From IMG/VR virus record IMGVR_UViG_3300010397_000053, positions 1-49,907 of that record: a DNA stretch of 49,907 bases. One strand, 5' to 3'. Position 1 is the first letter of the stretch. The number at the start of each line of letters is the position of its first letter. This DNA is from a virus. A model generated the notes under the pieces. That model had not been told where the DNA came from and searched no databases. It saw nothing but the letters and a program-made list of their open reading frames with translations. Below, piece after piece: positions 6,632 to 36,415 of the stretch. The position numbers and the translations under genes were made by a program.

Positions 6632-6768
6632 GACAGGTTGACGTTCCTGATACGGTCGAGTTTAGCACGCGAACGGCGTTCATCGAGCCATCTTAACCCG
6701 AGCATTCCGCTTCCGAGCGCGGCAAAGACAACGCCCAGTTCAAATAAGAATAGTGCAGAAAATAGCAT
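6619..6768 (-). CDS. Small single-span membrane protein
   Basis: A protein of 49 residues: a hydrophobic span MLFSALFLFELGVVFAALGS followed by an Arg-rich cytoplasmic-type tail. The ATG at 6768 shares one base with the terminase stop (TGATG), so it is coupled to the terminase gene. The function is unknown. The positive tail predicts an N-out or membrane-anchored topology. Confidence 0.6.
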   Translation of the reverse strand: MLFSALFLFELGVVFAALGSGMLGLRWLDERRSRAKLDRIRNVNLSWQR

Positions 6769-7625
6769 CACCACCCACCTCCTGAGATTCGATCCATCGT
6801 CCGCTCCCAACTTTCTTCCATTTCCTCCAGTGTGCAATCGCTCGCCTGCAATGACGGCGGTTCGTTCGTCATCTCCACTACTTCTTCTTCGGTTCGTTCG
6901 AGCGATAACGACCAGCCGTTAGCCATCCACAGAGCAAGGTTAAAGGCTCGCACGCGGTCATCGTGCCCACCTGGATTCTCGGCATACTGCTTATCTGGGT
7001 TCATGCGGCAATCAGCGTATTCTTCGGCCAGCCAGGGTGAACGCACAATGGCATTGCGGAGATTCAGGTGCCGCGAAGATTTCACCCACAGATCACGATT
7101 AGTGGTGGGCGTTGCGATCCAACCCAACTGCTTAGTGGGAGACACGGCGGTATCGGCGTAGCGTTCCCAGCGGAAGTGGTTCAGATAACCCAATTCGATC
7201 ATTTGTCTATAGGTCATCGTGCCGGGGCCTGGGTGCACTTCACAACAGCAACCACACTGATCTTCTTCGACCCCCGCATATAATCTGCCAATGATATTTG
7301 CTGTAAACCCTAACTCGAACGCATCAACTGGAGCGGCATATTCACACACCTGTTCGTCTGGTTCGGTCAGACCTCCGTTACGTCTCCCAAGCATAACTAC
7401 TTGAATACACCCATTGTCCGTTTTACCGTCCTCTTTTGTTCTGGCGTAACGATTCCACCCCGTCCTGCCTACAGTCGGGTCAATGCCCATCACATACTTT
7501 CTATGTTTCTGAGGAGCACGCCACATCCAAACGATGCCCCTTGGGTCCTGATCGAACTCAGACGCATCCATGCGCTGTATATTCCCGGAATTCCCAACCG
7601 AAAGGGCCGCAGGAAAGTTGCTCAT
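6768..7625 (-). CDS. Terminase large subunit, C-terminal nuclease fragment
   Basis: A 285-residue protein that is the RNase H-like nuclease half of TerL, which cuts concatemeric DNA during packaging. Visible signs are KYVMGIDPTVG near residue 45 (first catalytic Asp) and GHDDRVRAFNLALW near residue 230 (Asp pair near the end). Between them lies a central region with AEEYADCRMN. There is no ATPase domain. That half is encoded separately upstream (8103-9353), with an HNH gene between. The ATG at 7625 shares ATGA with the HNH stop. The reading frame is the same as that of the N-terminal half. Confidence 0.85.
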   Translation of the reverse strand: MSNFPAALSVGNSGNIQRMDASEFDQDPRGIVWMWRAPQKHRKYVMGIDPTVGRTGWNRYARTKEDGKTDNGCIQVVMLGRRNGGLTEPDEQVCEYAAPVDAFELGFTANIIGRLYAGVEEDQCGCCCEVHPGPGTMTYRQMIELGYLNHFRWERYADTAVSPTKQLGWIATPTTNRDLWVKSSRHLNLRNAIVRSPWLAEEYADCRMNPDKQYAENPGGHDDRVRAFNLALWMANGWSLSLERTEEEVVEMTNEPPSLQASDCTLEEMEESWERTMDRISGGGW

Positions 7626-8113
7626 ATGTGCTTCCAACTTGCCTTTCGTCTAATAGCGTGGATGCTTACTACAGCCATTCCAAAGGCTGCGGCTATTTCA
7701 CGTGCGCTACACTCAGCAGCCCGAATCGCGCGGATATGTTCTTCTGTTAGCTTTGCACCACTAGCTCTTTCGCCTTGTTTATTAAGGCGCATCCTGCCTT
7801 TGTCGGTAGCATCAATGATATTTTCTCTATGCGTTCCTTGAAAGAGATGCATAGGGTTGCAGTATGGCGGGTTATCGCAAGTATGGAGAAGTTCCAATCC
7901 AGGGACCAGTTCCTCCACTTCTAGTTGGTACACCACGCGATGCGCCTTAACGTCCCGTCCATTCAGCCAAAACTTACCATAACCGCCCTTAACGTAACGG
8001 ACCCCACTGTACTCCCAGCATTGATTTGGTTCGCCGCGAGTCACAAATTTCCAGAATCTAGCGATGTCGCTATCGGATAAAATAATCTCTCGGTTAGGAG
8101 GTCTACTGCTCAT
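7622..8113 (-). CDS. HNH homing-type endonuclease inserted in the terminase gene
   Basis: A protein of 163 residues. The HNH_3-type core is KAHRVVYQLEVEELVPGLEL, then LHTCDNPPYCNPMHLFQGTH, which is the usual H...H-x-C-D-N-P-x-C-N-P-x-H-L arrangement. The C-terminus (GAKLTEEHIRAIRAAECSAR, then EIAAAFGMAVVSIHAIRR) is an HTH of the type found on intron- or site-specific homing enzymes. It overlaps the N-terminal terminase fragment by 11 bases and the C-terminal fragment by 4. It therefore fills the whole gap in another reading frame. It probably arose by insertion into terL. Confidence 0.88.
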   Translation of the reverse strand: MSSRPPNREIILSDSDIARFWKFVTRGEPNQCWEYSGVRYVKGGYGKFWLNGRDVKAHRVVYQLEVEELVPGLELLHTCDNPPYCNPMHLFQGTHRENIIDATDKGRMRLNKQGERASGAKLTEEHIRAIRAAECSAREIAAAFGMAVVSIHAIRRKASWKHI

Positions 8114-9353
8114 AGCCGATCACCTTTGCATTGGTCTCTATGTGGTAAGGCATCCCCAGAAGAGAAGTGGATCTAAACCACTCTATCGTCTCCAGCGGCA
8201 AAGCGGCATGAGCAGAGTGTTGAAAACTCTGTTCTGGAGTAGCCGGATAATTAGTGAGGAAAATATTGAGCGTCCCCATCTTCTGCGCCTGTTTGCGCTC
8301 CGTCTCCCACCAGTACAGTTGATTCCTACCGATGCGAACTGTCTCTCCGCCCATGAACTCAGGAGATGTTCTTTCGATGAGGTCCGCATGTTCTTTACTG
8401 GCGGCATCTGGCTCCCAACCATCGGGCGCAATCAGACGATTCTTGTTGCTGTTGCAATAATGGGGCGTAAACACGTAAACCCAGCGCTCAAAGCCTTCTT
8501 CGCGCTTGCGGATGTACTCGGTGAACTGATGCCAGAAGTTGAACTGCCCTCTGCCGTTAGCGGTGCTCTCAAACGCCACAAAACTGCTCACGGCCTTGGG
8601 AACGGCGGGTAAAAAGTCGAATTGCAAGCGCCACGGGTCAGGCCAAAGCGCAACTTCGGTCATGTGGGAGATGTCGAACTGCTGTCCGGTGCCGACTCCG
8701 GCCTCCTGGTTGGCCTGCTGGTATGTAATCGAGGATTTTAGCGCCTCAAACGTCATCCCGCCGTTTTTTACGTCGAACTGGATGGCAGGCTTCAAGAACC
8801 ACGGCAGATTATCGAGCCAGATGTGATCGCGGGTGTAAAGTTCGCCAACTTTGGTGTCATCAAGAGACGCGGCAATGGCGCGAGTGCCGCGAAAGAGCGT
8901 CATCCGGTGCCCGGTGATGAGGCGCATAGTGGCGGTAGCGAACTGCTGGCGCGTTTTATGCCACACGGCCATGATTCCGTCCGTAAACCCGTGCGATTTT
9001 AGCTCCCGGTAGGATTCTTCTTCACGTTTGGCGATGAGGGCCAGCGCCCGCTCCTGTGAAGGCCAAAATTCAGGGATAACGCCGTTCCCGGACTTGGATT
9101 GCACCGAAGTATCGAGTTGAATGAAGCCGTAGCGGAGCGCCCAGTAGCGGAAATCGAGTTTGCAAAGCCGCTGTTCATTGCGGATGAAGGCGGATTCGCG
9201 TTCGGTAAGCTGAGATTGCCCTTTGGAATCGTCAAATTTCTTCTGTAGACGTTCGGTAATCGAGCAAACTTCGTCTACGGAGCGCCGTTCGACTTCGATT
9301 CCACGCTGTTTGAGCGCGAAAATCTTCTGTTCAACAATTTCTGCTGAATACAC
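8103..9353 (-). CDS. Terminase large subunit, N-terminal ATPase fragment
   Basis: A 416-residue protein and the packaging motor half of TerL. A degenerate Walker A region is VWHKTRQQFATATM near residue 130. The Walker B-like segment is DISHMTEVALW near 230. The coupling motif FESTANGRGQFNFW follows near 270, and a YPATPEQSFQHSAH segment near 380 is typical just before the nuclease linker. The protein then stops where a full TerL would continue. It starts at GTG 9353, sharing one base with the upstream stop (TAGTG). Function presumably needs association with the separately made nuclease fragment or RNA-level joining. Confidence 0.85.
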   Translation of the reverse strand: MYSAEIVEQKIFALKQRGIEVERRSVDEVCSITERLQKKFDDSKGQSQLTERESAFIRNEQRLCKLDFRYWALRYGFIQLDTSVQSKSGNGVIPEFWPSQERALALIAKREEESYRELKSHGFTDGIMAVWHKTRQQFATATMRLITGHRMTLFRGTRAIAASLDDTKVGELYTRDHIWLDNLPWFLKPAIQFDVKNGGMTFEALKSSITYQQANQEAGVGTGQQFDISHMTEVALWPDPWRLQFDFLPAVPKAVSSFVAFESTANGRGQFNFWHQFTEYIRKREEGFERWVYVFTPHYCNSNKNRLIAPDGWEPDAASKEHADLIERTSPEFMGGETVRIGRNQLYWWETERKQAQKMGTLNIFLTNYPATPEQSFQHSAHAALPLETIEWFRSTSLLGMPYHIETNAKVIGYEQ

Positions 9354-30096: not shown

Positions 30097-30132
30097 AGTA
30101 GCTCCATGTTAGCCTTTTGGGGCGGAGGTGGA

Positions 30133-30321
30133 ATGTCCACAAAAACGAAGGAATCAATGATTATCTGGCTGGCGAACAATCGCGGCGTCCTAAGCAAGAT
30201 CGCGGAGGAGATGCGGCCCAAGGTAACGCCGCAGTTCGTGGGGCAGGTTTGCAGGGGAACGCGAAAAAGCAAGGACGGAAAAATCGAGCGGATTCTACGT
30301 GCTGCTGGAGCGCCACTTTGA
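30133..30321 (+). CDS. Small HTH-like DNA-binding protein
   Basis: A protein of 62 residues. ANNRGVLSKIAEEMRPKVTP QFVGQVCRG forms an HTH-like pair of helices, ending in a basic RKSKDGKIERIL. GGAGG six bases before ATG 30133 decides the start. It heads the glycan operon and faces the motif-rich divergent region, so a regulator of either side is likely. The family resembles the phage Cro-like proteins that recognise operator repeats. Confidence 0.6.
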   Translation: MSTKTKESMIIWLANNRGVLSKIAEEMRPKVTPQFVGQVCRGTRKSKDGKIERILRAAGAPL

Positions 30322-31520
30322 GCCGTTTCGATGTAACTAAACCCGTACCAATTTTGATTTTGGGCGACAGCCCGGATGGGGTAACTGGCCTTTCTCGCAT
30401 CTGCCATGACGTTGCTTGGATCATATCCACCATGCCAGAGTTCAGGCTAGGCGTATTAGGACGCCAAGGGCTTGGCCGATCCTACTTCCCGTGGACTTCC
30501 TACCAGTTCAGCGCCCATCAGCAATGGGGAGAGGGACAGATCAAGGAAGCATGGGATGACCTGTCGCAAGGGCAGAGCGGCATCATATTCACCATCTGGG
30601 ACGCCACTAGATTGCTCTGGTTCGCAGATCCGATGGGGATGCCGGAGAACATTCAGCAATGGCTGGCAACAGGGGCAGTCGACCGCTGGGGATTGTTCAT
30701 GCAGGACTCTGAAGGCGTTCAGCGCGGCAAATTGCCGCTAACAGCAGCCCATGTGATGTCCAAGTTCGACCGCGTAATGCTGGCTTCTAAGTGGGCTTAT
30801 GGCATCACCAAGGCAACGCTAGAAGGCCATCCAGAGGTTGACTGGCTACCACATCCTCTGAATACTGACCGCTTTTTGCCGCAGGACCGCATGGCTTCGC
30901 GTTCGCACTGGGGCGTAGGAGAAAAGGAAATCCTGATAGGCTGCGCTATGGCGAATCAGGCGCGGAAGTATTGGCCTGTGGTGTTTGAGTCGCTATCTCT
31001 CATGCGGCCTACCACTGCGGGACTCCCTAAACTGTGGTGCAAGGTCGATAAGATCAGCCCAGAACCAGGATGGGGTTACTGGAATCTCGAAGCGCTAGCC
31101 TATGAGTACGGCCTTGGCAATCGCGTAATCCTTGACGTTAACAAACTCAGTGACCGCGATATGGCGCTGCGTTATTCGGCCTGTGATGCAACGGTGCTTA
31201 TATCAGGGGCGGAAGGGTTCGGCTACCCGATAGTAGAATCGCTTGGCTGTGGTGTGCCTTGCGTCACTGGGCAGTATGGTGCTGGCGGAGAGTTAGCAAG
31301 CCACGCTGTTGTGCCAACGGGATTCCGTATAGAGACGCAGCACAATGCGCGTTGGGCTACATATGAAGCGGAGCATGTAGCTAGGGCGCTGGAGACGGCT
31401 ACAGATCAAGTGCGAAGCGGGGACTGGGAACGTGAGTGGGGACAGGAACAGGTGGCTCATTTGAATGGGGCTAAGATTGGCAAGCTATACCAGCGATGGC
31501 TTAGGAAGGGGCTGCAATGA
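30318..31520 (+). CDS. GT-B glycosyltransferase (GT4-like)
   Basis: A protein of 400 residues. The start ILILGDSPDGVTGLSRI and the C-terminal GAEGFGYPIVESLGCGVPCV form the donor-binding E-x7-E pattern of GT4-like retaining enzymes. HPLNTDRF near residue 190 is also typical. It would transfer a sugar from a nucleotide donor. TTG 30318 is chosen because it overlaps the previous stop (TTGA). GGAG lies upstream. It is the first of five glycosyltransferases in the operon. Confidence 0.85.
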   Translation: MSRFDVTKPVPILILGDSPDGVTGLSRICHDVAWIISTMPEFRLGVLGRQGLGRSYFPWTSYQFSAHQQWGEGQIKEAWDDLSQGQSGIIFTIWDATRLLWFADPMGMPENIQQWLATGAVDRWGLFMQDSEGVQRGKLPLTAAHVMSKFDRVMLASKWAYGITKATLEGHPEVDWLPHPLNTDRFLPQDRMASRSHWGVGEKEILIGCAMANQARKYWPVVFESLSLMRPTTAGLPKLWCKVDKISPEPGWGYWNLEALAYEYGLGNRVILDVNKLSDRDMALRYSACDATVLISGAEGFGYPIVESLGCGVPCVTGQYGAGGELASHAVVPTGFRIETQHNARWATYEAEHVARALETATDQVRSGDWEREWGQEQVAHLNGAKIGKLYQRWLRKGLQ

Positions 31521-32224
31521 TCGTCTGCACCATCACCACCGATGCCAATAAGAACACGGAGCGTTTCAGGAGTTTCTTTGCAGACAACCCACTAGCCTCC
31601 GAAGTATGGAAAAACGATCCCAACATAGGCGTGGTCCCAGCGATGCAAAAGCTATACGAAAACAATGCCGATGAGGATTATATCTGTCTGGTACACGACG
31701 ATGTTACGGTCTACGATACCAACTGGGCAGAGCGTGTCCGCGCCGAGTTCGATGATCCAAAGGTTGCCATCGTTGGCTTCGGGGGTGCCACTGGCATTGG
31801 TGTGGATGACATCTACAAGACGCGCTACCAGATAGAGCAGCTTCAGAGGATCAACTACGCGAGCAACCAACGCGATTGGGAGACGCATGGATCGTATGAG
31901 GCTGGCAGCAAGGATGTGGCGGTAGTGGACGGCTTCTTCATGGCTGTGCGTACCTCATTCCTGCGGGAGATTGGCGGGTTTAAGTGGTTTCCGCATCGCT
32001 TCCACTGCTATGACACTGCGCTATGTGTAATGGCGCACCGCAAGGGCTATCGTGTTCGCATGGTGGGCGTCGAGTGCCAGCATCACGGCGGCGGCACTTC
32101 TACCACTTCGGAGTACAAGAAGTGGTGCCTTGAGAACGGCACTACGATGGAGCGCGAGCACGAAGAACCGCATCGTTGGATGTACGAGTTTTTCCGCGAT
32201 GAATTGCCCCTGAGGATCAAATGA
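31517..32224 (+). CDS. GT2-like glycosyltransferase
   Basis: A protein of 235 residues. CLVHDDVTVYDTNW holds the acidic metal-binding motif near residue 57. VVDGFFMAVRTSFLREIGGF and a later Asp/His pair are typical of GT2-fold enzymes that act on glycans. The N-terminal MIVCTITTDANKNTERFRSF is nucleotide-binding. ATGA overlaps join it to the genes on both sides. Confidence 0.8.
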   Translation: MIVCTITTDANKNTERFRSFFADNPLASEVWKNDPNIGVVPAMQKLYENNADEDYICLVHDDVTVYDTNWAERVRAEFDDPKVAIVGFGGATGIGVDDIYKTRYQIEQLQRINYASNQRDWETHGSYEAGSKDVAVVDGFFMAVRTSFLREIGGFKWFPHRFHCYDTALCVMAHRKGYRVRMVGVECQHHGGGTSTTSEYKKWCLENGTTMEREHEEPHRWMYEFFRDELPLRIK

Positions 32225-32394
32225 CAGACAAGGATCTAGAAAAACTAGCAGACGCAAGCCTTAAGGCAAGCATTGAGTATTACGATCAAGATAAACTTAG
32301 GTCCTCTTTCGAGAAGCAGGCGCTAGTGGCGCTTTGGACCGCTAACGCATTGCTTGCCGACATTGCCTTATCCCTCCGATACTCTCATGACTAA
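32221..32394 (+). CDS. Tiny helical protein inside the glycan operon
   Basis: A protein of 57 residues, all helical by eye (LEKLADASLKASIEYYDQDK, ALVALWTANALLADIAL). The ATG overlaps the previous stop by four bases, and its end overlaps the next start by eight. The function is unknown. Confidence 0.6.
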   Translation: MTDKDLEKLADASLKASIEYYDQDKLRSSFEKQALVALWTANALLADIALSLRYSHD

Positions 32395-33109
32395 CATTTG
32401 TCTCATAACTAACGGTTCCCGGCCCCGACTGCTGGAGCAAACGCTGCGGACGCTGTACGAGAACACGCCAGCGGATCAGTTCAACCTTACGATGGCGTGT
32501 GATGGTATCGCCATAGATATGATTGCTGCGATGCGACAGTATATAGACGACAACTTAAGCGTGATAGCCTCTATCCCCGGACCACACATTATCGGACGCC
32601 TCAAGAACCTAGGTGCCTACTGGTCAGAGAAGCAGTTCAGGCGCGGCGAGTGGCTGTGCTTCATCGATGATGATGTGGCGTTCATGTCGGGATGGTTGAA
32701 GCGAATGCAGCAGGCGTTTGCGGAGCGCAACCAACTGCGATTACTTGGTGGAGTTAGGCATCCCTACCATCAAGTGAATGAAGAATGGGCTGCTGTTGTA
32801 TCTCATGGAGGCATGAACTCTTGGCCTTCTGATGACGCGCAGGAAGTTGAGATAACCGACGCTGTGGCAGGCTACTGTCACTTCATGCGCTGGTCAACGT
32901 GGGCTCGTTTCGGCCCGTATGACGCCACAGCCAAGGGCACGGGGCAATCGGAGGACTACGCTATCTGCCGCAAGATCGTGGACGCTGGCGGTAAGGTTGG
33001 CTATATCTACCCACCTGTGATGGCCCACTGTGGTCTGACTGATAGCAGCGGCAAGCCGATACTGGGCGCGGAACTGATCGAGAAGCAGGAAGGCATCCTA
33101 TACCTATGA
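32387..33109 (+). CDS. GT2 family glycosyltransferase
   Basis: A protein of 240 residues. NICLITNGSRPRLLEQTLRT at the start and WLCFIDDDVAFMSGWLKRMQ with the DDD metal motif near residue 90 define a GT-A inverting enzyme. GQSEDYAICRKI near 195 is the catalytic-base region. The start is ATG 32387, inside the end of the preceding tiny gene. Substrate unknown. Confidence 0.88.
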   Translation: MTNICLITNGSRPRLLEQTLRTLYENTPADQFNLTMACDGIAIDMIAAMRQYIDDNLSVIASIPGPHIIGRLKNLGAYWSEKQFRRGEWLCFIDDDVAFMSGWLKRMQQAFAERNQLRLLGGVRHPYHQVNEEWAAVVSHGGMNSWPSDDAQEVEITDAVAGYCHFMRWSTWARFGPYDATAKGTGQSEDYAICRKIVDAGGKVGYIYPPVMAHCGLTDSSGKPILGAELIEKQEGILYL

Positions 33110-33660
33110 GGCTCTACAAAGAAGCGATGGAGATGACTAGCAAGATTTCGGTTGACCTGATCCTAAGCGAAGAAGAATGTTCCGGCTTCTGGGATCTCAT
33201 GGCGCAGATACCTCCAGGCGGAACGGCTGTAGAGATCGGTTGCTATCGCGGACGCAGTTCATCGCTGATGCTTCAGGCAGCGCAAGACAACCACTTCCTG
33301 TCTATCCACATTGATCCTTGGACTACAGGCGAGGCGCATGAATGGATGGGTATGGCGCAGAAGATTTCAGTTCCGTTTGTGGTGCTTAAGATGACCAGCG
33401 AACAAGCTCTGGCGCTGCCTTGGCTTGCCAATGTCCCACTGGATCTGGTTTACATCGACGGCGACCATGAAACGCCTGCCGTTGAGATTGACGTGAAGTG
33501 GGGAGAACGAATCAAGCCGGGAGGCATCCTTTGCGCCCATGACTATGGCCGCGACTTCCTGTCAGGCGTGGAGATTACGCTAAAGAACTACGTCAGAGAT
33601 CCCAAGTGGCAGATGCTTGGCGTGTGGGGAACGTTAGCGGCATGGAGGAAGGTGCTGTGA
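33106..33660 (+). CDS. Class I SAM-dependent methyltransferase
   Basis: A 184-residue protein. AVEIGCYRGRSSSLML is the SAM-binding glycine motif, LDLVYIDGDHETPAV is the acidic post-IV motif and GGILCAHDYG follows. This is the Methyltransf_24 pattern, found in sugar- or O-methylating enzymes of polysaccharide clusters. It overlaps both neighbours by four bases. The sugar or protein acceptor is not evident. Confidence 0.85.
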   Translation: MRLYKEAMEMTSKISVDLILSEEECSGFWDLMAQIPPGGTAVEIGCYRGRSSSLMLQAAQDNHFLSIHIDPWTTGEAHEWMGMAQKISVPFVVLKMTSEQALALPWLANVPLDLVYIDGDHETPAVEIDVKWGERIKPGGILCAHDYGRDFLSGVEITLKNYVRDPKWQMLGVWGTLAAWRKVL

Positions 33661-34313
33661 AACTGGCCTACCTAGCCACCTGTTTCTTCGGATCGACCGA
33701 TGACATTTGGATGCTACGGGACTCTGCCATAAAGTTTGGCGTTGACCTGAAACTGTACGGCCTAGGGAAAGCGTTCCTGCCAGGGTTCATCGACATCAAA
33801 GTTACGGCCATGCTGCCAGAGCTAGAGGCACTTTTAGCGCAGGGCTACAGTCATGTTCTCTACACTGATGGCCCTGATACATTCTTCGTCAAGGGACCGC
33901 GAGAGATAGAGGCGGCATACGCGGCGTTAGGGCATCCAGCATGGCTCATCAGCGCTGAGACAAGCTGCTATCCGCACACTGCCCTTGGTCCCGTTCTCCC
34001 GATGGACAAGCGCTGCCCTAATACGGGGCAGTACATGGGCGAGATTGGCGTAATCCTGGAAGGCTGGAAGAAACTTAAGTCTCTCTACGATGATGGCACT
34101 GACAACGAGCAAGGCTGGGTGATTCGCGGCATCGTGGATGGCATGCTGCCAGAAGTCACGATAGACATGGGCAGGTACATCTTTCGCAGCGAAGCCGACA
34201 ACTACTTTCCCGGCATGAGCGGCTGTGTGCTGCACTTCAACGGCGGCTATTGGAATCCAAGCGAAGGCAAGCGGGACAGGATGCTGCCAGTTTGGGAGCG
34301 CGTCAATGGTTAG
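33657..34313 (+). CDS. PLOD-like glycosyltransferase
   Basis: A protein of 218 residues. SHVLYTDGPDTFFVKGP carries the acidic D-x-x-D region, and AWLISAETSCYPH matches the FSAE-x-x-CWP feature of the PLOD/procollagen glycosyltransferase GT domain. A late VLHFNGGYW resembles its closing motif. GTG 33657 overlaps the previous stop and has GGAGGAAG upstream. Acceptor unknown. Confidence 0.7.
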   Translation: MKLAYLATCFFGSTDDIWMLRDSAIKFGVDLKLYGLGKAFLPGFIDIKVTAMLPELEALLAQGYSHVLYTDGPDTFFVKGPREIEAAYAALGHPAWLISAETSCYPHTALGPVLPMDKRCPNTGQYMGEIGVILEGWKKLKSLYDDGTDNEQGWVIRGIVDGMLPEVTIDMGRYIFRSEADNYFPGMSGCVLHFNGGYWNPSEGKRDRMLPVWERVNG

Positions 34314-34809
34314 ACTTTGCGTTGGCAGCGGGCAACGTCCATTCGCCAAGCCATTTATCAATGTCGATTTGAACCCTCGATGGAAACCAGATGTGGTAGC
34401 CGATGGTGCCTCCATGCCGATGTTCAAGGATGATAGCGCGGATATAATAGTGCTCCACCACGTAGCCGAACATGCAGGGTGTGGCGAATCCCATCCAATG
34501 CTGGTTGAATGCCGCCGAATCCTCTGCAAGAAAGGTTCCCTATTAGTATTCGTTCCTGATATGAAGGCATTGGCAAAGTGCTGGCTGAAAGGGAATATCA
34601 GTACTCAGATTTATCTGACTAATGTATACGGGGCCTATATGAATGACGAAGCCGACAGGCATCGTTGGGGGTTCACGAAAGAGACACTAACTGACACACT
34701 GCTATGCGCTGGGTACACCGATGTCAAGCCTTTCGATTGGCGCAAGATTCCAGGCGCAGACATAGCTGGACCTGACTTTTGGATTCTTGCGATGGAAGGT
34801 ATCAAGTGA
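34306..34809 (+). CDS. SAM-dependent methyltransferase (Methyltransf_11-like)
   Basis: A 167-residue protein. LCVGSGQRPFAKPFINVDLN is motif I, DVVADGASMPMFKDDSADII is the acidic loop, and VLHHVAEH is the motif IV-like segment. It resembles small methyltransferases of glycan clusters. ATG 34306 overlaps the preceding stop by eight bases. Confidence 0.8.
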   Translation: MVRLCVGSGQRPFAKPFINVDLNPRWKPDVVADGASMPMFKDDSADIIVLHHVAEHAGCGESHPMLVECRRILCKKGSLLVFVPDMKALAKCWLKGNISTQIYLTNVYGAYMNDEADRHRWGFTKETLTDTLLCAGYTDVKPFDWRKIPGADIAGPDFWILAMEGIK

Positions 34810-35681
34810 GTGACCTAGCCGATGCCCGTTACCAGTTGATCGCGCCGCTGCTACGCCGCTACAAGCGCCGTTTCACTGTCTTAGACCTTGGCGCTGGCAT
34901 CAACCCCTACATGGCGCAGCGGATCAGCCGCGAGTTCGACGCTGTGGTTGTGGCTTTGGAGCAGGATGAGATTGCGCCAGAGGAGTTGGCGAAGTTCGGA
35001 CCCCGTGCGCTGTGGCTGCGGAAGAAGATGAGCTTTGAGGATATGTTGCGGTTAGTGCGCTGCGAAAGATTCGACGTTGTTTTGGCACTTAATATCCTGC
35101 ACCACTTTGGAGAGGAGTGGGATTTAATAGCAGGAACGCTTCAATTGCTTGGGCATGAAGTGATTGTGCAAACTCCAGATGCTTCTGATGAAGGAACCTG
35201 TGGTCGGGACATCACTCCTGCCATCCAGAAGTGGCTAGATGGAGAAAGGATAGGCGACAGCATCCAGTTCCCAAGCCATAACCCAAGACCGATCTATCGC
35301 CTAGATGGTTCCGTCCTTTCGACTATTACGATGTCATCATGGACATCTCCAGTGAACTGCATTGAAGCTGACATATGGGCTACTCATTCTTCTTGTGAGA
35401 TTAGACTACGTCATAAAGGAATTGGCTATCGCCCCTACATCCACGGCCTAAACCTCTGGAACTTCGCGCAACTCAACGGGCAGTGGCCGCGCAAAGAGCA
35501 AGTGCTGAAGCTAATCCATGAGTTCCCGCTAAGACAAGAGCGGCATGGTGACATCACGCCGCACAACTTCCTGTTCGACGGCGCTGAGTTGCATCTGATC
35601 GACGGCTATGAGGGCTGGGAGTTTGACGACAAGGAGAACTTGGCAAAGACGGAGCGGATGATGGCAGAGGTGCTTCAATGA
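34806..35681 (+). CDS. Methyltransferase fused to a kinase-like catalytic segment
   Basis: A protein of 291 residues. The N-terminal half has VLDLGAGINPYMAQRI and VVLALNILHHFGEEWD, a Rossmann methyltransferase. The C-terminal third carries HGDITPHNFLFD near 247 and LHLIDGYEGWEF near 262, the H-G-D-x-x-x-x-N and I-D-x-x-E pattern of APH/WaaP-type small-molecule or LPS kinases. Only about 25 residues follow, as in heptose kinase-like proteins. Both activities are inferred. The GTG start at 34806 overlaps the previous stop. Confidence 0.7.
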   Translation: MSDLADARYQLIAPLLRRYKRRFTVLDLGAGINPYMAQRISREFDAVVVALEQDEIAPEELAKFGPRALWLRKKMSFEDMLRLVRCERFDVVLALNILHHFGEEWDLIAGTLQLLGHEVIVQTPDASDEGTCGRDITPAIQKWLDGERIGDSIQFPSHNPRPIYRLDGSVLSTITMSSWTSPVNCIEADIWATHSSCEIRLRHKGIGYRPYIHGLNLWNFAQLNGQWPRKEQVLKLIHEFPLRQERHGDITPHNFLFDGAELHLIDGYEGWEFDDKENLAKTERMMAEVLQ

Positions 35682-36415
35682 ATCAGAATGGCCTCATTAT
35701 CCTTTTGGCGAGGAACAACGTCGCACTATCCCGCGAGTGCCTGAAATCTCTAAGATCGCAGACGGTGCCAGTCACGATCCTAGCCGTCGATAACGCCTCT
35801 ACCGATGGCACAAAGCAGTGGCTACGGGCAGAGCGCGGCATCCGCGTGATGAGCTTTGAGCAGCAGGTATCTGTCGCTGAAGCATGGAACACGGCGCTGC
35901 GCTGGGGATGGTCGCAGGGGCACGATGAAGCGCTAGTGGTAAACAATGATACTTGGCTGCTACCTGAGACATACCAGACGCTATCGGACTGGGCCGCTGC
36001 TGACGATGGGCGCACAACGGGGATGGTGACGTGTGTTAGCCGGAGAGAACGGAGCGAGTTGGTGTACGATAAGCCGTTTAGCCATCGCCCCAACCCCGAC
36101 TACAGTTGCTATATGATTCAGCGATGGGCGCATGAGCGAGTGCCGTTCGATGAGAACATACTTATCGCATTCGGTGAGGACTCCATGCACCACGTCACCT
36201 GCCATCGCCAAGGCATACGCTGTGAGTGTATTGACCTGCCATTCCTGCACCACGGCAGTCAGACCGTGAAGCGTGCCGATGAGATTGAGCGTAGGCGCAT
36301 CGGTAGGCAGGCCGACAAGAACCGCGAATACTTCTTCCAGAAGTGTGGCAAGCGGATCGGGACTGAGGGCTATGATGAACTGTTCACCGATGCGACGTTT
36401 GGCATCGACTACTGA
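35678..36415 (+). CDS. GT2 family glycosyltransferase, rhamnosyltransferase-like
   Basis: A protein of 245 residues. VTILAVDNASTDGTKQWLRA and VVNNDTWLLPE are the donor and metal motifs of WbbL/rhamnosyltransferase-type GT2 enzymes. FGEDSMHHVTCHRQGIRC is the catalytic-base region. The ATG overlaps the previous stop. The 3' end overlaps the opposing gene by seven bases, closing the operon. Confidence 0.88.
   Translation: MNQNGLIILLARNNVALSRECLKSLRSQTVPVTILAVDNASTDGTKQWLRAERGIRVMSFEQQVSVAEAWNTALRWGWSQGHDEALVVNNDTWLLPETYQTLSDWAAADDGRTTGMVTCVSRRERSELVYDKPFSHRPNPDYSCYMIQRWAHERVPFDENILIAFGEDSMHHVTCHRQGIRCECIDLPFLHHGSQTVKRADEIERRRIGRQADKNREYFFQKCGKRIGTEGYDELFTDATFGIDY

Follow-up and report, generated by a model that had tools for sequence, protein, structure and literature searches.

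The window, a 49,907-nt stretch of DNA from a soil-type phage (IMG/VR record IMGVR_UViG_3300010397_000053), carries three consecutive, overlapping genes on its minus strand. The first encodes the ATPase polypeptide of a large terminase (8103..9353; 416 aa, GTG start), the second an HNH_3-type endonuclease with a C-terminal HTH-like tail (7622..8113; 163 aa, ATG start), a putative passenger at the terminase junction, and the third the terminase nuclease polypeptide (6768..7625; 285 aa). The portal gene (5066-3051, minus strand) lies downstream of the nuclease gene, later in the packaging region. The end of the ATPase gene overlaps the start of the HNH gene by 11 bases (8103..8113, minus strand), equivalent to a 4-base ATGA in the nearest relative, IMGVR_UViG_3300024251_000007 (L002), and the HNH stop overlaps the nuclease start by 4 bases (ATGA, 7622..7625, minus strand), equivalent to 8 bases in L002. 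The original prediction had described this gene order with its 11- and 4-base overlaps, as well as a single reading frame shared by the two terminase halves across a 480-base gap (7626-8105), and both descriptions were confirmed from the sequence. The ATPase ORF stops 34 residues past YPATPEQSFQHSAH, with the C-terminal end ...GMPYHIETNAKVIGYEQ. For the nuclease, the ORF has a longer, mechanical start at TTG 7637, but ATG 7625 is the likely start because L002 starts at the homologous ATG. Together, the two polypeptides amount to 701 aa (416 + 285) compared to 712 and 711 aa in fused relatives, indicating that no terminase sequence was lost at the junction.

Searches of Pfam, PHROGs and NCBIfam with the two halves gave no terminase assignment, only a spurious autoinducer-domain match. 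Using a profile of seven ATPase sequences, we found matches to the ATPase of T4 gp17 (PDB 3ezk, 2o0h and 3cpe; E = 2e-6 to 9e-6). The structure model of the ATPase half was poor (pLDDT 49), and its top two PDB matches (E = 0.04 and 0.08) were both to the ATPase domain of T4 gp17. For the nuclease half, a sequence profile searched against PDB returned nanobody noise only, but fold comparison succeeded: the best Foldseek match of the AlphaFold model (pTM 0.64) was the RB49 gp17 nuclease (E = 1.4e-6, probability 1.0), and the five best PDB matches were all RB49 and T4 gp17 nuclease domains (E = 1.4e-6 to 5e-6). The window's terminase thus resembles T4 and RB49 gp17 by profile in its ATPase half and by fold in its nuclease half, whereas gp17 is a single chain and the two domains in the window are separate genes. 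By computation, the halves are genuine terminase parts, namely a gp17-type ATPase and a gp17-type nuclease of the RNase H fold.

Conserved residues were examined next to selection on both genes. The ATPase motifs K-x-R-Q, H-x-T-E and E-S-T were kept in an 84-sequence alignment. In the nuclease, Asp49, Glu129 and Asp223 were invariant among eight aligned sequences; in the 84-row alignment the Glu of this acidic triad was again invariant, and both Asp columns contained either Asp or a gap, with no substitute. Between the window and L002, dN/dS was 0.027 for ATPase codons 1-271 and 0.006 for nuclease codons 151-285. Purifying selection this strong on both genes indicates that neither half is decaying. 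The P-loop Gly position (ATPase residue 138, about 8942-8940, minus strand) was occupied by Gly in 62 of the 84 sequences and by Ala in 11, and it was Phe in the window and L002 only. Because of this replacement, the ATPase activity of the window's protein is uncertain; the Phe occurs despite the strong purifying selection on the gene.

To place the locus among its relatives, we gathered sequences from IMG/VR using alignments of each half, with metagenome contigs recruited by motif patterns, and removed near-copies, leaving 83 non-redundant relatives with both halves. The terminase was split in 69 of these, either as adjacent genes (n = 34) or with other sequence in between (n = 35), and fused into one ORF in the remaining 14, although these proportions do not represent an unbiased sample because of the motif-based recruitment of metagenome contigs. 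Adjacent pairs overlapped by 4 bases (ATGA type) in 16 cases and by 1 base in six, with the nuclease in another frame; the same relative frame of the nuclease recurred in 26 of the 34 pairs, as 4-base and 1-base overlaps give. Upstream of the nuclease starts in adjacent pairs we found Shine-Dalgarno-like sequence, which averaged -5.6 kcal/mol (1.6 below the value for shuffled sequence) and was below -4 in 23 of 34 pairs, and the signal at the window's own nuclease start was weak (-3.3 kcal/mol). In the insert-bearing class, ATPase and nuclease were in random relative frames (11/15/9). Inserts ranged from 112 bases to 3.5 kb, the larger ones with several genes, and most began by overlapping the stop codon of the ATPase gene by 4 bases. 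Besides HNH genes and numerous short ORFs, they encoded proteins of the DNA methyltransferase, Methyltransf_24, glycosyltransferase, HTH and radical SAM types. Junction HNH genes (Pfam HNH_3) were found in the window, L002 and L050, which are few of the 84 sequences overall.

These relatives bear on how the window makes its terminase. The original prediction proposed either a two-piece enzyme or joining at the RNA level; the first is the most likely, the split being kept with and without inserts, while the second finds no support in the insert-free relatives, in which the halves lie in other frames and there is nothing to splice. If RNA joining did take place, the 480 bases with the HNH gene would be a self-splicing intron, or part of one, and the spliced RNA would encode full-length terminase. 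Precedents exist in ICP1, where HNH-3 endonucleases are found in spliced introns and terL is itself spliced (PMC10448857), and in Campylobacter phage IBB_35, whose terL is reported to contain an intron and an intein (PMC3322345). In the window and in L002 alike, both halves are also in one frame on either side of the gap, but such agreement means little alone, occurring at chance level in 11 of the 35 insert-bearing relatives, some of which have several genes and up to 3.5 kb at the junction. The gap lies wholly inside the 492-base HNH ORF, with no room outside the ORF for a separate ribozyme core, and the insert RNA folds no more stably than shuffled sequence (z = -0.41). An RNA covariance search gave no Rfam intron match in the window or L002, a negative that carries little weight because Rfam also misses the proven ICP1 terL intron, used as a positive control. 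Since the halves are in different frames in most relatives, there is no intron to remove from these, and RNA splicing of the terminase is unlikely in the window, where we give a self-splicing intron very little credence.

With nothing to splice and no frame continuity, the terminase of insert-free relatives must consist of two polypeptides unless the ribosome shifts frame. Programmed -1 frameshifting at the overlaps would produce a fused terminase in these phages, and the recurrent relative frame of the nuclease in adjacent pairs is compatible with it. However, slippery XXXYYY motifs were present in only 4 of the 34 adjacent pairs, ribosome-binding-like sequence precedes most nuclease starts, and frameshifting cannot span the insert-bearing cases, including the window, making this an extremely improbable route to a fused protein. 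A reading of the HNH region as an intein was rejected, given the ATPase stop codon at 8105-8103 and the position of the HNH gene in another frame.

Next, we mapped split and fused states on an unrooted tree built on both halves. Six changes were required compared to 13.2 with shuffled labels, and five compared to 11.4 after removal of three long-branched rows and use of a mixture model. The window and L002 were sisters with full support in a 13-row clade, 12 members of which are split, including relatives with no insert at all (for example, L009, L012, L110 and L028). Two fused sequences, L049 and L015 (the latter present in three distinct metagenome records, L014-L016), were nested in clades of split members, which suggests that the fission is old and that apparent re-fusion occurs. 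Re-fusion is the simpler reading for both, with the direction of change read from an unrooted tree.

The same comparison argues against the claim that the HNH gene split the terminase. Insertion-free relatives whose gene is intact had been expected to date the event; what we found instead were insertion-free relatives whose gene is split. In 34 relatives the gene is split without any insert, many of them with a 4-base ATGA, and 35 have assorted genes at the junction, others than HNH among them. The split therefore predates the present HNH gene, and it probably arose early in the clade, before that gene arrived. The opposite history, in which an intact terL was broken in two by insertion of an HNH gene, with later HNH losses leaving the split bare, has some basis: HNH-type genes occur at the junction in the window, L002 and L050, some terminases within the clade and beyond it are fused (L001, L015, L017, L165 and L168), and genes in pieces through homing endonucleases are documented in work cited in PMC2988022 and PMC10448857. 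We nonetheless regard it as improbable. Most split relatives, close ones included, show a clean ATGA overlap or an unrelated gene and no endonuclease remnant, and non-HNH genes occupy the junction in most insert-bearing relatives. Repeated loss of an insert that leaves an exact 4-base stop/start overlap is also less likely than insertion at an existing boundary. What is new here is the breadth of the split clade, the apparent re-fusions and the many inserts found at one junction.

We then examined the HNH gene itself. Its protein matched Pfam HNH_3 (E = 5e-5, just under the curated cut-off) and PHROG HNH/endonuclease families (E down to 8e-25), and an HTH-like, DNA-binding tail was assigned to its C terminus by inspection. 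Relatives of the family were present in 667 phage records, many at unrelated positions, and a pattern search of IMG/VR found no close relatives of the protein. L002 has the same arrangement with another HNH gene: the two HNH proteins are 38% identical, compared to about 91% for the terminase halves together. Identity in 40-base windows fell from ~0.9 outside to mostly 0.3-0.75 between about 8480 and 7181, delimiting an exchange tract of ~1.3 kb (7181..8480, minus strand) centered on the HNH gene. Its edges were sharp and left flanks of about 370 and 440 bases around the gene. Synonymous difference was 0.40 in the codons beyond the tract (ATPase 1-271; nuclease 151-285). Within the tract, across ATPase codons 274-416, nuclease codons 1-150 and the HNH gene, it reached saturation at 0.81-1.05, and the terminase codons there gave 0.83-1.05.

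Free-standing endonucleases co-convert their flanks in T4 relatives (PMC2988022), and the tract is what co-conversion, or recombination centered on the HNH gene, would leave, as seen in one phage pair only. Ordinary recombination may instead have produced it because further identity dips and mosaic stretches occur elsewhere along the comparison of the window with L002. The best reading of the HNH gene is that of a free-standing, homing-type and exchangeable passenger that probably did not cause the split. About 50 bases before the tract edge, near position 6812 of L002, the ATPase gene of that phage has a 1-base frameshift (CAGTTAAC compared to CAGTTCAAC), which is either a sequencing or assembly error or real.

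The position of the HNH gene within the terminase operon, with start and stop codons that overlap those of its neighbors, could alternatively mean that its product itself contributes to packaging, in the manner of HK97 gp74. Terminase-adjacent HNH proteins can act in cos cleavage, as discussed for HK97 in PMC10448857. However, the junction, which is the site surveyed, is free of HNH genes in most relatives that share this terminase. The divergence of the HNH proteins between the window and L002, set against the similarity of the terminase pieces, and the frequent occurrence of the family at unrelated genome positions likewise make a packaging role doubtful for this protein.

Taken with the results above, our best explanation, in which we have considerable confidence, is a large terminase made from two genes as two translationally coupled polypeptides that assemble non-covalently, with an early split and an HNH gene that came later as a homing-type passenger. 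Under this model, the ATPase and nuclease genes would be consecutive units divided at the interdomain hinge. A single message would serve all three genes, with termination on one gene coupled to re-initiation on the next at their overlapping stop and start codons, and the ATPase and nuclease polypeptides would come together at the portal as a non-covalent packaging motor. The HNH gene would have settled at a tolerant gene boundary and been exchanged with ~0.4 kb of flank on each side; its protein, if active, would cut alleles that have no HNH gene and spread through repair. We infer the translational coupling, the non-covalent assembly and the homing activity, and conservation of both halves suggests that they function jointly.

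More speculatively, the motor of this clade may have a dissociable nuclease. Its halves, long separate, re-fusable and separable by kilobases, might then allow the dose and timing of cutting to be set apart from those of pumping, and the junction would be a place where cargo genes land. We offer this only as a tentative possibility.

Several known systems resemble the window in part, although the phrase 'split terminase' was not found in the literature searched. According to reviews, the large terminase is a single polypeptide whose ATPase is N-terminal and whose nuclease is C-terminal, and the nuclease domain has been called universal (PMC7824862). Among phages of Arthrobacter, BillyTP and most other members of cluster AY are known to have a two-gene large terminase (PMC11920828; record PP978841), so that, as in the window, the enzyme comes from two consecutive genes, here in a cultured phage; unlike the window, BillyTP has no endonuclease gene between the halves. 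As a homologue of the window's split, the cluster AY terminase was rejected for want of a significant profile match. Because it is not detectably related, separation of ATPase and nuclease probably arose more than once.

Other comparisons involve endonuclease genes. In phage Aeh1, nrdA likewise encodes an essential enzyme as two pieces, and mobE, a gene for an HNH-type homing endonuclease, lies between them. In contrast to nrdA, the window's split occurs without an endonuclease in most relatives, so the endonuclease would not be its cause. ICP1 similarly has HNH-3 genes between fragments of essential genes (terL and tape measure), and related phages there, like the window and L002, have differing HNH genes at the same locus (PMC10448857). 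The ICP1 fragments are joined by RNA splicing, whereas the relatives of the window argue for separate polypeptides. Finally, the ATPase half has a distant relative in the Tunturiibacter phage Tunturi_1 (PP887698), with 25% identity over residues 1-304. The portal gene of that phage is also downstream and an HNH gene is nearby, but, unlike the window, Tunturi_1 has a single fused large terminase of 723 aa.

A mostly split clade with fused members nested in it provides a natural experiment that asks whether pumping and cutting must be covalently linked in order to be coupled. Such a clade further illustrates how the boundary between two genes, when it falls at a domain hinge, turns into an insertion site for passengers. 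On the practical side, because Pfam, PHROGs and NCBIfam recognize neither half, annotation and phylogeny based on the terminase will miss or fragment this marker gene in these phages.

Additional features were observed among the relatives. Three of them (L067, L069 and L070) have an in-frame insertion of ~250 aa at the Walker A motif of the ATPase, near residue 138. Those of L067 and L070 have Intein_splicing as well as Hint- or LAGLIDADG-type matches, mostly below Pfam cut-offs, and are likely inteins; that of L069 has no Pfam match. The sole relative from a bacterial or archaeal genome collection, L170 (QHVT01000038.1), is found in an Acidobacteria metagenome-assembled genome and, along with the distant Tunturi phages, hints at Acidobacteriota hosts.

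Elsewhere in the window, a second small endonuclease-like ORF (5332-5081, minus strand; PHROG 2340 endonuclease, E = 1e-16) lies just upstream of the portal gene and looks like another recent insertion because it has no aligned counterpart in L002. Several large ORFs at 48990-36409 (minus strand; 984, 717, 526, 492 and 471 aa) and a 1408-aa ORF at 30035-25809 have no PHROG match at E = 0.001. Opposite to the structural genes, a gene block on the plus strand (30117-36415) includes glycosyltransferase-like and methyltransferase-like proteins. Upstream of the terminase, a 289-aa protein (10469-9600, minus strand) with DnaJ-like zinc-binding CxxCxG repeats is kept in L002 and is a candidate small terminase or other packaging factor.
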